DNA from: Planctomycetota bacterium
Lineage (GTDB): Bacteria > Planctomycetota > UBA8742 > JACQVU01 > JANLHZ01
Direction: 5' to 3'
DNA: 34,489 nt
Assembly (NCBI GenBank): GCA_024653775.1
Contig: JANLHZ010000167.1
Coordinates: forward strand, 1-34,489
Both the position numbers and the translations under genes were made by a program. This document shows, piece by piece, positions 652-34,489 of this stretch (position 1 is its first letter; each line of letters starts with the position of its first letter). Below the pieces are notes generated by a model. That model searched no databases. It was given only the letters and a program-made list of their open reading frames with translations, and had not been told where the DNA came from.

Positions 652-1911
652 TTAATTCTTAATTCCTTCAATGGTCACCTTCGACTCGTCGCGCAGACTG
701 TCCGGAGGATAAAGGATCACGCTTTCTCCGCGTGAAAGCCCGAAGGTGACCTCTGCCGAAATTCCATCGTTGTGCGCGATGCCGACCTTGCGCAGAAGCG
801 CCTTCCCGTCCACCGCGACGAATGTCATCCAGTCCCGGCCTTTTCTGAATAGCGCGCTTGCCGGAACCAGCAGGACGTCGTCCGAATGCCAGGTGACGAT
901 TTGCGCCTCGACGCGGTATCGGTCGCCCAGCTTTACGTTTTCCGGAATCGGATCGATGAAGTCGACGCGCACGATGACTCGCTGCTCCTCGACTCCTAAG
1001 GCGGAGAGTTTCGTGAAGCCGACGGGTTCGACGATTTTCACGCGCCCGCGAATCCGCGCGCCTTCCCCAAGTCTTTCGAACGTGACTTCCGCGCCTTCCG
1101 GAATCGTCTGCGCGTCGCTCGAAAGCAGCTCGATTTCTGCTTCGAGCGCCCGCGGATCCCCGACCTCCATTATCGAAGCGCCCGCGGGGACGATCCGCGC
1201 GTTCTCCTCGAAAACCTTGAGCACGACCCCGTCGATCGGGGAAAGGATTTTCACCGCGTAGTCTCCGTTCGCCACTAAATTCGAGAACTGCTCTAGAACC
1301 GCGCGTGCCTGCATGGCCTCGAACGTTGCGGCGCTAAGCGCGAACTCCGCCCCCTGGAGTTCGAGTTCCGACAGCAGTGCGCGGGTTTCGAAACTGTCGC
1401 GCTCCTGAATCGAAACGATCTCGTTTTCGCCGAGGGCGTCGATTCGTTCGAGTTCCTTCTTCGCGAGTTCGTGCGCGGCCCTGGCGCGTTCGACCTCGGT
1501 TTCACGGAGCTGTTTCATCGCGCTTGCGGCTTCGAAGCGCGCCTCCGCCTCCGCTTTCGTCCGGGGGTCGAGAAGTCCGGAAGGCTGCGCGTCGATGGTC
1601 GCGAGAAACGTCTCGCCCGCGGAAATCTCCGCGCCTGGGCGAAGCTCCACGCGACTCAGATATCCGCTCACGGGAGACGAGATCACGTATCGATGGCGTA
1701 TGCGGGTCTCGCCTTCCTCGATTATGCTGATCGTCAGCGGCCCCCTCGTCACTAGCCCGGTTTCGACCACAACCGGCTTCGGAATGAATCCATAGACGAT
1801 CGCGCCGAGGAAAGCCGCGACGCCGGAGTAAAGCAGGATTTTACGCCAGAGGCCGCTTCGATTGCGATTGCGGCTCGAGTTCGTTCCTTCGATTTTCGAA
1901 TTGTCAGTCAT
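652..1911 (-). CDS. HlyD/RND-type periplasmic adaptor subunit
   Basis: This 419-residue protein is a membrane-fusion (periplasmic adaptor) subunit linking an inner-membrane transporter to an outer-membrane channel. There is a short cytoplasmic N-terminus, one membrane anchor at about residues 25-45 (LLYSGVAAFLGAIVYGF) and a split lipoyl-like domain around 65-110 with SPVSGYL and SPIDGVV halves. An alpha-helical coiled coil rich in Glu, Ala and Arg lies at about 115-215, followed by beta-barrel and membrane-proximal domains. Length and order match the HlyD/MacA-like family. Its ATG overlaps the stop of the upstream permease by four bases (ATGA), so the two are translationally coupled. It is the third and last gene of the ATPase-permease-adaptor operon. 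The exported substrate cannot be read from the sequence. The adaptor identity is firm; whether it is closer to MacA or to heterocyst DevB-type adaptors is open. Confidence 0.9.
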   Translation of the reverse strand: MTDNSKIEGTNSSRNRNRSGLWRKILLYSGVAAFLGAIVYGFIPKPVVVETGLVTRGPLTISIIEEGETRIRHRYVISSPVSGYLSRVELRPGAEISAGETFLATIDAQPSGLLDPRTKAEAEARFEAASAMKQLRETEVERARAAHELAKKELERIDALGENEIVSIQERDSFETRALLSELELQGAEFALSAATFEAMQARAVLEQFSNLVANGDYAVKILSPIDGVVLKVFEENARIVPAGASIMEVGDPRALEAEIELLSSDAQTIPEGAEVTFERLGEGARIRGRVKIVEPVGFTKLSALGVEEQRVIVRVDFIDPIPENVKLGDRYRVEAQIVTWHSDDVLLVPASALFRKGRDWMTFVAVDGKALLRKVGIAHNDGISAEVTFGLSRGESVILYPPDSLRDESKVTIEGIKN

Positions 1912-4271
1912 TCTCTCGCTTTCAGTACTCCGAGGAGGTCGAGTTTGGCGATGCGTCTAGCGACGACCGCGAACGACATACCCGAGGATAAAGTTACTAT
2001 CAGGACGGAGGTCGCATAAGCCTTGTTCGTAAGCACGACCGGGACTCTCATCAATTCCGTGCTGATTCCTTCTACTATGAGGTTTGAAAGCCACCACCCA
2101 AGATAAAGACCCGGCAGCAGTGCAAGCAACGTCAGGAGGGCAAGCTCACCGATCAGCACCGAGGCGACCTCCCGCTCCGTGAATCCGAGAACGCGCAGCG
2201 TGGCCAGATCACGGGTACGTTCCGACAGCGCGATACGTGCTCCGTTATAGATCACTCCAAATGCAACGACCACCGCGAAGAAGAAAAAGATCCCGTGGCT
2301 GATGTCCATCATCTCGCCCATGATTTTATCGAAGCTTTCGAGCACCGCTTTCGTTTTAGATACCGAGCCGACTCTAGGAGATTCCTTCGCCTTTGCGTTG
2401 AATTCGTCCCAGTACGCTTCGTCTATTTCGAGATGCGCACCGCTGACGGTCCCGCCTTCGCCCATAAGTCTCCGGAGGGCTTCGATCTCCATGTACGCGC
2501 CGACTCCCGCGTAGTCGGTGATCGTCCCCGCGACTCTTGTCTCGAGCACGGGCCGCGCGCCTTCCTGTACTTCGACGCGGAGCGTGTCTCCCGGCGCTAC
2601 GCATAGAGTTTCCGCGAGCTGCTCCGAGAGCAGCAGCCCCGTCATCGGGAGAAGAATCTGCTCGCGGTTCTCGTTTAGAAGGCGCATCAGTCTCGAATCC
2701 TGCTGAAGTCCGGTAATGCCGATTCTTCGGTCGACGTGTCCACTACTGAGTCTCGCGGGAACCATCCTGAAAGGTTCCGCGCTCTGCACTCCCGGAAGCG
2801 CGCGGATGTCGCTCATCGCTTCGGAACCTGCTGGTTCGATCAGCGAGAGCGTAACGTCATGCCTCTGGGACTGCCTCCACTGGAAGTCCATCATATAAAT
2901 CATCCCGTCGCTTAGCGAGACGGAAACTATCGGGATCGCCGTGGCGAGTGCGAGTCCGACCGCCGTGAAAAACGCCTGCCACGGTCTACGCTCGAGGTTG
3001 CGAAGCGCCATCCGGAACGCCGGGGTCGCGAGCTTCGAAAGCCCGAGCCTCTCGAGCAGCGAGGGTTTGAAATCCGCCGGCGGCTCCGGACGCATCGCCT
3101 CCGCGGGCGGTAGACTCATCGCCTGACGCACCGCGCCGAGGATTCCGAGGAACGACATCCCCGCCCCCGCAAGCAGACCCAGGATCGGCGCGTTCCAGTC
3201 CGGATGGAATTCGAGCGAAGGGAACCTGAAAAACGGTTCGTACATGTAGATGAGCCGGCTCCCCACGAACATTCCGAGAGTCCCGCCGAGGATCATTGCG
3301 ATCGTCACCACGACGAGCGCGAATTTGAAGTAGTGGAATCCGATCGCGCCTGAAGAGTACCCGAAAGCCTTAAGCTGCGCGATCTGCTCCCTCTGAAGCC
3401 GAACGAGCCTCGTCAGCGCGGCGCTCGTCATGAACGCCGCGATCGAAAGGAAGATCAGCGGGAACGCGATCGAAACCGTTCTCAGCGTGCTGATCTCGTC
3501 GTCGACCATCCTCGCCGACCCATGCTCCGAGCGATCGTAGGCGCTGAGACCTCCAAATGGCGCGAGCACGCGATCGACTTCCGATTTTATGGCGCGGACG
3601 TCCCCCTCTGGCGCTACGTCGAGAACCACGCTGTTGAACGCGCCTTCGAGCGCGAGCGCGATGGAAAGTTCCCGTTCGTTCATCCAGAGAACGCCGTACT
3701 TCCGGTTGTCCGGCATGAACCCGCCGGGCGGAAGCTCGTAGACGAACTCCGGAGAGATCGCGACTCCGACGACGACGAGTTTCGCGCGGGCGCCGTAGAT
3801 CGTCGCGTCGAGCACGTCTCCCGGGCGCATTCCGTGAGCCTTCGCGAACGCCTCGCTTACCACGGTCTCGCCGCGGCTTCCAGAGACGGGAAGCCTCCCG
3901 GCGCGGAGCAGCAGCAGATTCAGGTTCTGCGGACGATCGTCCGGAATCGAGATGATGACCGCCTCGGCTGTCTCCGCCATTCCGGGGATGTCGAGGATAG
4001 CGCCGCCGCGGACGCGGGTGTCGAGCGCCGCGACGTCCGGTATCTCTAGAAGCTCGGAGCGCACTTTATTCGGCGCCCGCTTCAACTCGCAGAACACGTC
4101 GGCGAATCGATGCTCTCCGTAGTATCCGTCCCTCGTGGTCTCGAGCGACATCACGAGGCTGCGCTCCATTATCATCACCATCAGTCCGCAGATCATCACC
4201 ATTGCGACCGCGGTCATCTGACCTTTCATCGTGCCGAGGTCGCGGAGCAGCTTTAGATCGAGTGCGCGCAT
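1908..4271 (-). CDS. ABC transporter permease with two FtsX domains
   Basis: This 787-residue inner-membrane protein has duplicated FtsX/MacB-type architecture. An N-terminal membrane helix (residues about 15-40) is followed by a periplasmic domain and a three-helix FtsX block at about 265-400. A second helix near 440, a second periplasmic domain and a second FtsX block at about 665-787 complete it. This family does not move substrate through the membrane; it transmits ATP-driven movement to periplasmic partners (mechanotransmission), or works in lipoprotein or macrolide export. The gene sits between the ATPase and the adaptor. The upstream spacer is almost entirely a repeat element whose inner end lies only a few bases before the ATG. 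The bases before the ATG are TAGCCTCCTAACTCT, with no AGGAGG-like ribosome-binding site, so initiation may be weak. Identity is firm, substrate unknown. Confidence 0.92.
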   Translation of the reverse strand: MRALDLKLLRDLGTMKGQMTAVAMVMICGLMVMIMERSLVMSLETTRDGYYGEHRFADVFCELKRAPNKVRSELLEIPDVAALDTRVRGGAILDIPGMAETAEAVIISIPDDRPQNLNLLLLRAGRLPVSGSRGETVVSEAFAKAHGMRPGDVLDATIYGARAKLVVVGVAISPEFVYELPPGGFMPDNRKYGVLWMNERELSIALALEGAFNSVVLDVAPEGDVRAIKSEVDRVLAPFGGLSAYDRSEHGSARMVDDEISTLRTVSIAFPLIFLSIAAFMTSAALTRLVRLQREQIAQLKAFGYSSGAIGFHYFKFALVVVTIAMILGGTLGMFVGSRLIYMYEPFFRFPSLEFHPDWNAPILGLLAGAGMSFLGILGAVRQAMSLPPAEAMRPEPPADFKPSLLERLGLSKLATPAFRMALRNLERRPWQAFFTAVGLALATAIPIVSVSLSDGMIYMMDFQWRQSQRHDVTLSLIEPAGSEAMSDIRALPGVQSAEPFRMVPARLSSGHVDRRIGITGLQQDSRLMRLLNENREQILLPMTGLLLSEQLAETLCVAPGDTLRVEVQEGARPVLETRVAGTITDYAGVGAYMEIEALRRLMGEGGTVSGAHLEIDEAYWDEFNAKAKESPRVGSVSKTKAVLESFDKIMGEMMDISHGIFFFFAVVVAFGVIYNGARIALSERTRDLATLRVLGFTEREVASVLIGELALLTLLALLPGLYLGWWLSNLIVEGISTELMRVPVVLTNKAYATSVLIVTLSSGMSFAVVARRIAKLDLLGVLKARE

Positions 4272-4278
4272 AGAGTTA

Positions 4279-4458
4279 GGAGGCTAAAATTAATAAGGTA
4301 TTCAAAATCGCGCTCAGATTTATGCCAGGTTCGCTTCGATCGAGGAAGTCAAAACGGAGTCGTAGCCATAGTTCCGATGAGTATTTGACGACCGAGAGCG
4401 AAGTGAAAGTGGCGTGAAGATGAGATGCGAGATGGATACTTTATTTATTTTAGCCTCC
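4279..4458. mobile_element. MITE-like repeat element, copy 1
   Basis: This 180-bp non-autonomous element begins GGAGGCTAAAAT and ends with the inverted form ATTTTAGCCTCC. Its terminal inverted repeats are 23 bp, with two mismatches in the left arm of this copy. It is flanked on both sides by TTA (4276-4278 and 4459-4461), consistent with a 3-bp target duplication. The body matches copies at 19780-19974 and 34395 onward almost base for base. It is 15 bp shorter than copy 2, all in the centre around GATGAGTATTTGACGACC. No transposase is encoded. It lies inside the export operon, and the flanking TTA is the stop codon (TAA on the minus strand) of the ATPase gene. Confidence 0.85.
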
Positions 4459-5238
4459 TTACCAGGAAAGCTCCGCCACCGGCCTGCGACTGCGATTGAT
4501 CCTGACGTCCGCGATCTTTCCGTCGGAAAGCTGTATCACGCGGTCCGCCATCTCCGCGATGACCGCGTTGTGCGTGATGACCACCGCGAGTGTTCCGAGC
4601 TCGCGGTTTACGCGCTCGATCGCGTCAAGGACCATCACTCCCGTCCTGACGTCGAGCGACCCGGTGGGTTCGTCGCAGAGCAGCACCTCGGGCCGCTTCG
4701 CGATTGCCCGCGCGATTGCGACGCGCTGCTGCTCGCCTCCTGAGAGCTGCGACGGAAAATGATCCATCCTTTCCCGGAGCTGGACCAGGTCGAGCACCTC
4801 CTCGGGAGTCATCGGATTCCGCGCGATTTCGGTGATCAGCGCGACGTTCTCGCGGGCGGTGAGGCTTGGGATCAGGTTGTAGAACTGGAAGATGAACCCG
4901 ACAGTGTTCCGGCGGTAGTTCGTAAGTTCCCGTTCGCCGGCATGGGTGAGGTCGGTGTTTCGATAGGCGAGCGTTCCGTCCGTGAGAGTATCGAGCCCGC
5001 CGATGATGTTTAGCAGGGTCGACTTTCCGCTTCCCGATGCGCCGAGAAGGACGACGAGTTCGTTTTCGTAGAGATCGATGTCGACGCCGGCGAGCGCACG
5101 TACTTCGACGTCCGCGCTTGTGCGGTAGACCTTCGTGACGCCCCTCGCGGCAATCATCCGCTCGCGATTCCGAATCGCTCCCGCGTCCTGTTCTACTGCA
5201 GCTTCACTGTTCATCGGCGGCGCGCCCTTTGCGACCAT
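4459..5238 (-). CDS. ABC transporter ATP-binding protein (MacB/LolD type)
   Basis: The 259-residue nucleotide-binding subunit powers the adjacent FtsX-type permease. Walker A is GASGSGKST at residues 66-74, the signature LSGGEQQR starts at 165, Walker B is LLCDEPTG at about 186-193, and the switch histidine is in VITHN. The Q-loop sits in [14 protein letters not shown], typical of LolD/MacB-like ATPases. It is the first gene of the operon with the permease and HlyD adaptor. Start is uncertain: ATG at 5238 gives 259 residues, and an in-frame ATG at 5214 (MNSEAAVEQ) is equally possible because neither has a strong ribosome-binding site. The stop codon is the TTA flank of the repeat element, so the original C-terminus could have been slightly altered by insertion. 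Confidence 0.92.
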
Positions 5239-19752: not shown

Positions 19753-19779
19753 GGACAATTCTGCGCCCCGCGTTCATTA

Positions 19780-19974
19780 GGAGGCTAAAATAAATAAAGT
19801 ATTCAAAATCGCGCTCAGATTTATGTCAGGTTCGCTTTGATCGAGGAAGTCAAAACGGAGTCGTAGCCATAGTTCCGATGAGCCATTACCTCGATGTCAT
19901 GGGACGACCGAGAGCGAAGTGAAAGTGGCGTGAAGGTGAGATGCGAAATGGATACTTTATTTATTTTAGCCTCC
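19780..19974. mobile_element. MITE-like repeat element, copy 2 (longest full copy)
   Basis: This 195-bp element has 23-bp perfect terminal inverted repeats starting GGAGGCTAAAAT, followed by a body nearly identical to copy 1. It is flanked by TTA at 19777-19779 and 19975-19977. The extra 15 bp relative to copy 1 lie in the centre around CCATTACCTCGATGTCATGG. Read on the minus strand, one frame is open from the terminal repeat to a TAA in the left part. No transposase is present. The right-hand TTA is the stop codon of the DUF1697 gene. Confidence 0.87.
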
Positions 19975-20523
19975 TTACTCGCCGCCCGAAGCGGACGCGA
20001 GTTCGATCAGTTTGCCGATCGTGTTCCAGTTGCGCGTGGTCGCGACCCCGAGCTTCCTTTCGATCAATGCATTCGTGAGCTTCGTTCGCCCGGCGCCCGC
20101 GTGATACCGAAGATACGCGTCGTTCCCGACGACTCGGATTTCGTCTCCTTCGAAGTCGGCGGATTCGATTTCGCGGATCGCGTCCTTCGTCGGCTTGCCG
20201 CTCAGAAAGCTGACGTAAAGCTTTTTCGCGATCTGCTCTCCGTCCTTGATGAACGGATTCCCCGCGACAACTTTCTTCAACTCCGCGGGAGTCCTGACGA
20301 CCACGGAAACCTCGAAGCCAAAGCGATCGTGGATTCCGTCCTCGATCCGCTTCGCCGCGGCTTTCGCGCCGAGCGCGGTTTCGAAATAGACGTTCCCGCT
20401 CTGAATGTACGTCACGGCGTTTTCGAACCCGAGCGACTCGTACAGCGCCTTTAGATCCTTCATCAGAATGAGTTTCTGCCCGCTGACGTTGATCCCGCGG
20501 AGCAGCGAAATGAGTTTCTTCAT
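19975..20523 (-). CDS. DUF1697 family protein
   Basis: The 182-residue protein matches the DUF1697 family from end to end: the N-terminal KKLISLLRGINVSGQKLI, the middle YIQSGNVYFET and the C-terminal KLTNALIERKLGVATTRNW are characteristic. The family's function is unknown; members are small cytosolic proteins common in many phyla. Its ATG overlaps the stop of the upstream giant lipoprotein gene as TAATG, which implies translational coupling despite unrelated products. The stop codon lies in the TTA that flanks the repeat element. A longer frame upstream is a shadow of the lipoprotein gene and is not accepted. Confidence 0.9.
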   Translation of the reverse strand: MKKLISLLRGINVSGQKLILMKDLKALYESLGFENAVTYIQSGNVYFETALGAKAAAKRIEDGIHDRFGFEVSVVVRTPAELKKVVAGNPFIKDGEQIAKKLYVSFLSGKPTKDAIREIESADFEGDEIRVVGNDAYLRYHAGAGRTKLTNALIERKLGVATTRNWNTIGKLIELASASGGE

Positions 20524-34378: not shown

Positions 34379-34394
34379 AGTCGCCCGGCGGTAA

Positions 34395-34489
34395 GGAGGC
34401 TAAAATAAATAAAGTATTCAAAATCGCGCTCAGGTTTATGTCAGGTTCGCTTCGATCGAGGAAGTCAAAACGGAGTCGTAGCCATAGTT
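34395..34489. mobile_element. MITE-like repeat element, copy 3 (cut by window end)
   Basis: It begins GGAGGCTAAAATAAATAAAG, as copy 2 does, and matches its first 95 bases with only two differences (G for A at 34439 region, C for T near 34453). The left flank is TAA (34392-34394), not TTA. The other end lies beyond the window. It sits just upstream of the DNA glycosylase gene. Confidence 0.8.

Follow-up and report, generated by a model that had tools for sequence, protein, structure and literature searches.

A small inverted-repeat insertion element with a strand-specific core fold and variable but complementary ends in a Planctomycetota genome

Are the short repeats on a contig of a Planctomycetota assembly copies of a mobile element, and if so, what moves them and what is their conserved body for? 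The window analyzed here (34,489 bp) is the whole of contig C45 of a fragmented genome (5.4 Mb in 331 contigs); it contains two complete copies of the element and one truncated at the contig end. The best cytochrome b match of this genome among species genomes, at 66% identity, is in a MAG recorded as Deltaproteobacteria bacterium B10_G4, a match that does not settle the phylum. An earlier note had described them, from the letters alone, as a MITE-like non-autonomous transposon. The features are listed below with the basis of each assignment in parentheses; A1 is an alignment of 57 copies.

4279–4458, + strand: copy 1, 180-bp form (DNA search of own genome, alignment A1)
4276–4278, no strand: copy 1, left target-site duplication TTA (direct reading, family statistics)
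4279–4304, + strand: copy 1, left inverted end with GG tip and AATAA motif (end comparison, A1)
4351–4381, + strand: copy 1, apical part of the core fold, AAAACGGAGTCGTAGCCATAGTTCCGATGAG (alignment, covariation)
4433–4458, + strand: copy 1, right inverted end (end comparison, A1)
4459–4461, no strand: copy 1, right target-site duplication TTA (direct reading)
19780–19974, + strand: copy 2, 195-bp form (DNA search, folding)
19777–19779, no strand: copy 2, left target-site duplication TTA (direct reading)
19780–19805, + strand: copy 2, left inverted end (end comparison)
19852–19882, + strand: copy 2, apical part of the core fold (alignment, covariation)
19949–19974, + strand: copy 2, right inverted end (end comparison)
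19975–19977, no strand: copy 2, right target-site duplication TTA (direct reading)
34395–34489, + strand: copy 3, 5' half only, at the contig end (direct reading, DNA search)
34392–34394, no strand: copy 3, left target-site duplication TAA (direct reading)

The three copies of 180–195 bp have near-identical bodies, as the earlier note stated: identity to copy 2 amounts to 88% for copy 1, with a 15-bp indel, and to 98% across 96 bp for copy 3. Terminal inverted repeats are present and are longer than the 23 bp claimed, spanning about 26–27 bp with 96% complementarity in copy 2 and 30 bp with 87% complementarity in copy 1. Also in line with that description, a Pfam scan of ten proteins of the window revealed no transposase.

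Copy 1 lies within a MacB-like ABC transporter set (1908–5238), between the genes of an FtsX-type permease and an ATPase, so that the operon spacing is 183 bp longer; its right TTA (4459–4461) serves as the minus-strand stop codon TAA of the ATPase ORF (4459–5238). Two further repeat families occur in the window. One, about 300 bp long (94–354; GGAGGTTCGAGATCGCGC..GGTAAGTCCGG..GGGTAACGATTTCGAACCACCCGG..), occurs 12 or more times in the DNA read, resembles a structured RNA, and is without a counterpart in Rfam; its 5' end adjoins an end of the hairpin element in L110 and L153. The other is a REP-like hairpin family (10–65; GTTCGTAGTGACGCCGTAAGGCG..ATATGCTCTCACGAGCACACTACGAAC) with dozens of copies, whose partners may be the genome's five Y1 transposase loci.

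Evidence for insertion comes from the flanks. When 70 distinct full copies were aligned on their GG...CC tips, 44 had matching flanks (26 TAA/TAA and 18 TTA/TTA) versus 4 with the mixed pair TTA/TAA (binomial p 1.5e-9). Since TTA and TAA are mutually reverse-complementary, a flank lying inside the inverted ends would give mixed pairs; hence the matching pairs represent a direct duplication, as had been proposed from the TTA or TAA at each visible flank. The comparison of empty and filled sites that had been suggested as a check has an internal counterpart in L074, where a copy (1196–1375) is situated inside a GAATTAC array, and deletion of the copy together with one TTA restores the array. Thus, we are dealing with an insertion that is non-autonomous, has inverted ends, and duplicates a TTA/TAA target. 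With a length of 180 or 195 bp, no transposase gene, terminal inverted repeats, and a target-site duplication, it is filed as a MITE, with a putative membership in IS5.

The same data bear on the refutation put forward in the earlier note, in which the repeat would be a structured RNA under conservation and no insertion. A conserved strand-specific fold does exist (see below), but so does insertion, and both properties hold together. A host family of non-coding RNA genes, repeated but not mobile, is therefore highly improbable: it would account for a conserved fold with covariation, but it is contradicted by the direct TWA duplications and the internal empty site, and it fits poorly with exact ends, more than 100 scattered copies, and a patchy distribution across taxa.

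Several unusual arrangements were observed. In a composite copy in L091 (7040–7171), two right core arms are fused head to head, the end types to their left and right differ, and the flanks are TAA and TTA. Contig ends in L046 (19411) and L120 (9115) resemble the halves of one copy split at the apical loop; assuming that the two contigs are linked, the IS splitting this copy has the ends GGCTTTGTTGCATAAAT and an 8-bp duplication ACGTCGAG. Microsatellite arrays of the GAATTAC 7-mer are dispersed in the genome (L074, 1160–1200; L103, 7180–7220; L112, 4844–4876).

The suspicion of a high genomic load was borne out. The DNA search of the own genome yielded 62 matches (best E 2e-100), and a 14-base core word with at most two mismatches had 275 matches versus 36 for the reversed control word, both far beyond chance; for the genome as a whole (5.4 Mb) we arrive at some 240 core matches. 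Within the 1.70 Mb examined, a part of the genome picked partly for matches, 126 element sites were found. The length is exactly 180 bp in 51 of the 70 distinct full copies and 195 bp in seven.

Nearly all of these copies (69/70) are intergenic, although 56% of TWA sites fall in predicted genes, the gene predictions being based on a simple codon model. Gaps between divergent genes are somewhat enriched (26 copies versus 6 in convergent gaps; baseline 27:20; p 0.007). The orientation relative to tandem neighboring genes is random (14:18) and thus gives no support for an RNA read from these genes. Given the intergenic placement, in-frame insertion of the kind known from Rickettsia elements was rejected, as were stop codons as selected targets (only 5/70 copies) and a coding role of the element, whose frames are closed by stops in most copies. 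No promoter or terminator above chance was found within the element.

The ends vary in a manner not expected of an ordinary MITE. Mean pairwise identity in A1 is 80–82% in core columns and 96% in the AATAA stretch, while the 11 positions between GG and AATAA are only 51% identical, the tip GG and the internal AATAA being the only fixed parts of the ends. The left and right ends of one copy differ at 1.2 of these 11 positions, compared to 5.4 of 11 between copies. The 57 copies contain 44 different left 11-mers, which form a single continuous cloud at three differences. Distances between copies correlate at 0.75 from end to end and at 0.09 from end to core, hence the ends change jointly and independently of the core. 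At that, hybrid copies with unlike left and right ends (e.g., L045, 9472–9666, and L118, 6941–7127) demonstrate that recombination occurs.

One explanation for this pattern, possible although we lean against it, is that the host lineage has had many transposases, each acting on ends of its own, which would account for the many end types, and that cores have been shuffled among copies by recombination. The agreement of left and right ends within a copy, the failure of core type to predict end type, the hybrid copies, and the occurrence of the core between quite different ends in other genomes would all follow. On the other hand, the end sequences form a continuous cloud with no discrete classes, and few transposases have been found. 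This explanation bears on nothing but the ends and can stand alongside the model that we prefer for the element as a whole.

The core has a property of a different kind, a fold specific to one strand. Folded as RNA, copy 2 reaches −86.5 kcal/mol on the + strand and −63.6 kcal/mol on the − strand; the + strand is the lower one in each of the 74 full copies that were extracted first, and the same holds for 36 of 37 relatives. A structure of 69 pairs imposed on A1 has 93.8% of cells paired and 35 pairs with double changes. The number of double-change cells is 414, versus 137 with shuffled partners and 37–75 with slid partners, and relative to column shuffling the whole structure retains 0.33 of the expected AC mismatches and 0.79 of the expected GU pairs, these figures for covariation and asymmetry being indicative, as shuffles keep shared ancestry in. 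The asymmetry peaks in the core stem (AC 0.35 and GU 0.91 of expectation; log ratio 0.96, 95% CI 0.57–1.36) and does not reach significance in the variable end positions. This points to a core under selection as one strand and to ends under ordinary inverted-repeat constraint. The core also contains a near-invariant CGTAGC. Comparison of the window copies and relatives with 4227 Rfam covariance models gave no relevant match.

In order to describe the distribution of the fold, we used a covariance model built from A1 (R1). It matched 10 of 294 genomes of the phylum, the own genome and nine others, and 6 of 40 named genomes. In Ca. Anammoxibacter all 67 sequences scored match R1 (best 1e-34), whereas the cultured Geothermobacter hydrogeniphilus HR-1 has 25 weaker matches, some of them in copies without parts of the motif. 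Further matches come from one MAG each of Desulfuromonadales, Deltaproteobacteria (two matches), Nitrospinaceae, and Acidobacteriota. Relatives are thus found in genomes named Planctomycetota, Desulfuromonadia, Nitrospinota, Acidobacteriota, and Proteobacteria, these being record names subject to possible MAG contamination. The relatives were detected by the covariance model only: the exact core word had no match in GTDB species genomes and viral contigs, and a DNA search of 40 relatives gave matches solely in the own genome.

The flanks of the relatives are mostly identical 3-mers (TAA, TTA, TCA, ATA, AAA, GAA), and in G211, G038, and one copy of G055 the same core is placed between other ends (CTAGCAGGCC...). 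In an alignment of 28 relatives, itself fitted to the model, all 69 pairs show double changes, with 566 such cells versus 167 for shuffled and at most 143 for slid partners. Inside the fold, 21 AC mismatches were observed versus 93 expected, and 106 GU pairs versus 157 expected. The common apical motif is approximately CC-G-S-A-R [hairpin] Y-G-A-G-G-A, from which some Geothermobacter copies deviate. A pattern search with this motif matched two contigs of a viral collection: L318, a prophage-like contig, contains a full-length relative flanked left and right by TTTA, and the core of L319 matches intergenic places on proteobacterial plasmids.

Tentatively, and with somewhat less than even odds, these elements may constitute a mobile superfamily crossing phyla, in which one conserved folded module (CC-GSA-R / Y-GA-GG apical loop) is combined with different inverted-end frames, the module, as RNA or as a DNA hairpin, has a role in propagation, and complementarity of the ends is selected instead of their sequence. 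The fold, its occurrence in other phyla, and the widely varying ends are the aspects that the earlier note missed.

A simpler interpretation, that this is an ordinary MITE family in which inverted ends and a palindromic core produce the hairpin incidentally, and the fold has no selected function, seems distinctly unlikely. Small bacterial MITEs of 100–200 bp with long, stable stem-loops are well known (PMC2229807; PMC10969869), and the target duplication, the ends, and the intergenic placement agree with it. However, it does not explain why the core is conserved more than the ends (about 80% versus 51%), why GU pairs are kept while AC mismatches are avoided, or why the fold and the apical motif recur in other phyla with other ends.

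The search for the mover gave a partial answer. Over 21–28 bases, the ends of L319 and of a Comamonas copy resemble those of elements carrying an IS5-family transposon annotation, and plasmid-borne autonomous IS5-family elements of Achromobacter, Marinobacter, Methylomonas, and Pandoraea have similar ends. The E-values of these short matches are weak (0.05 to 7), hence the link to IS5 rests more on annotation and paired ends than on scores. The elements of Achromobacter and Marinobacter have inverted ends with TTAA or TTAG on both sides, i.e., a 4-bp YTAR-like flank. The transposase of the IS5-family elements belongs to NF033581/PF01609, and that of Achromobacter scores 354 bits against the NCBIfam model IS5_4. 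R1 run on these elements had no match to the IS interior. An IS5-type mover is thus likely for the relatives, which supports the IS5-like affinity suggested earlier; for this genome we infer a putative mover of the same type from the relatives only.

In the own genome, no transposase with matching ends was found by four transposase family searches and by reading of ends in 1.7 of the 5.4 Mb, so that the IS with the same ends that the earlier note had advised looking for did not turn up. The element's ends in this genome were matched to no IS. Paired ends 210–4500 bp apart in the 1.7 Mb proved to be nested insertions and chance pairs only. DDE_Tnp_4 (PF13359) and DDE_Tnp_1_2 are absent from the own genome, and three DDE_Tnp_1 loci were rejected as partners due to their other ends. 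The alternative of a PIF/Harbinger-like element, raised at the outset, is thus upheld as regards the TWA duplication but not as regards the DDE_Tnp_4 transposase. The ISAzo13 transposase is absent from 10 of 11 element-bearing genomes searched, including the own one. Five Y1_Tnp loci are present and better fit another REP-like family. As a separate observation, an IS in L121 (C252) encodes a DDE_Tnp_1 transposase and is bounded by CAATACTGTTCGGCACG; its non-autonomous derivative, the ends of which are similar to CAATACTGTTCGGCACG, is nested in a copy of the hairpin element (L072, 16809–17262).

Taken together, we favor, with a probability of roughly 60%, a MITE moved in trans by a DDE transposase, whose core is a separate module folding as one strand and acting as RNA. 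A DDE transposase, most likely of the IS5 type, would act in trans on the non-autonomous element, cutting at the GG tips and inserting into TWA with a 3-bp duplication. The core would be a separate module selected to fold as one strand, not left-over IS sequence, and co-evolution, or repair that uses one arm as the template for the other, might keep the ends complementary as their sequence drifts. The 4-bp YTAR-like flank of the IS5-family relatives, versus the 3-bp TWA here, argues against this model, as do the negative searches of the own genome for a transposase with matching ends.

The fold probably acts as RNA from the + strand, a choice that we favor somewhat over a single-stranded DNA hairpin. 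The reading in which single-stranded DNA is folded in the course of movement and recognized by structure, like integron attC sites or REP/RAYT systems, is on the whole unlikely, if less so than an ordinary MITE. It draws on ends that keep complementarity and not sequence (0.75 versus 0.09; 44 11-mers in 57 copies), on the tolerance of DNA, too, for G-T wobble, on the five Y1-type loci, and on the unbiased orientation to neighboring genes. Y1 and attC reactions leave no 3-bp duplication, however, and a true one is present here; moreover, the variable part of the ends has no significant strand asymmetry, and the other, clearly REP-like family is an equally good partner for the Y1 loci.

Among known systems, MITEs derived from the IS5 family (IS1031/ISL2/IS427-type groups) share with this element a short inverted-repeat structure, intergenic placement, and a TA-centered target of 3–4 bp, and the ends of its proteobacterial relatives resemble those of autonomous IS5-family elements. 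They differ in that no matching IS was found here, the target is TWA (3 bp) and not YTAR-like (4 bp), and the core does not come from an IS interior and is conserved across phyla.

The nearest described element, compared by description alone, is QMITE2 of Coxiella burnetii, which is 150–190 bp long, has 23–29-bp inverted ends and a GTAG palindrome core, exists in large and small forms, produces a stable hairpin transcript, is the source of a small RNA, and has relatives in alphaproteobacteria (Wachter et al. 2018, PMC5896051). The size, the inverted ends around a core, and the two forms are similar, with CGTAGC here and GTAG there, but QMITE2 has duplications of 7–13 bp instead of 3 bp, and a shared origin is no more than a lead.

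Correia/NEMIS, ERIC, RUP, RPE, and CIR elements are likewise non-autonomous, 100–200 bp long, mostly intergenic, and form long stem-loops, but have a TA dinucleotide at their ends. The optional internal segment of the 155-bp Correia form (PMC2229807) is comparable to that of the 195-bp form described here. REP/BIME sequences with RAYT (Y1) are palindromic, intergenic, and abundant, and form strand-specific hairpins; in contrast, our element has inverted ends and a 3-bp duplication and does not fit the REP/RAYT definition. REPs are shorter, have a GTAG-type palindrome, and leave no target duplication.

For the core itself, no publication was found in the open-licence literature, and the limited literature searched contained no report of a core conserved across phyla or of ends varying yet complementary. 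MITEs are usually viewed as deleted insertion sequences, in which the ends matter and the middle does not. Here the pattern is reversed: it is the middle that is conserved, with strong covariation, between genera and between phyla, and the ends that drift, retaining only their complementarity. If confirmed, this would be an undescribed family of structured RNA or hairpin DNA spreading by transposition, and would open to direct testing the questions of functional RNA in small transposons and of selection on the structure, not the sequence, of their ends.
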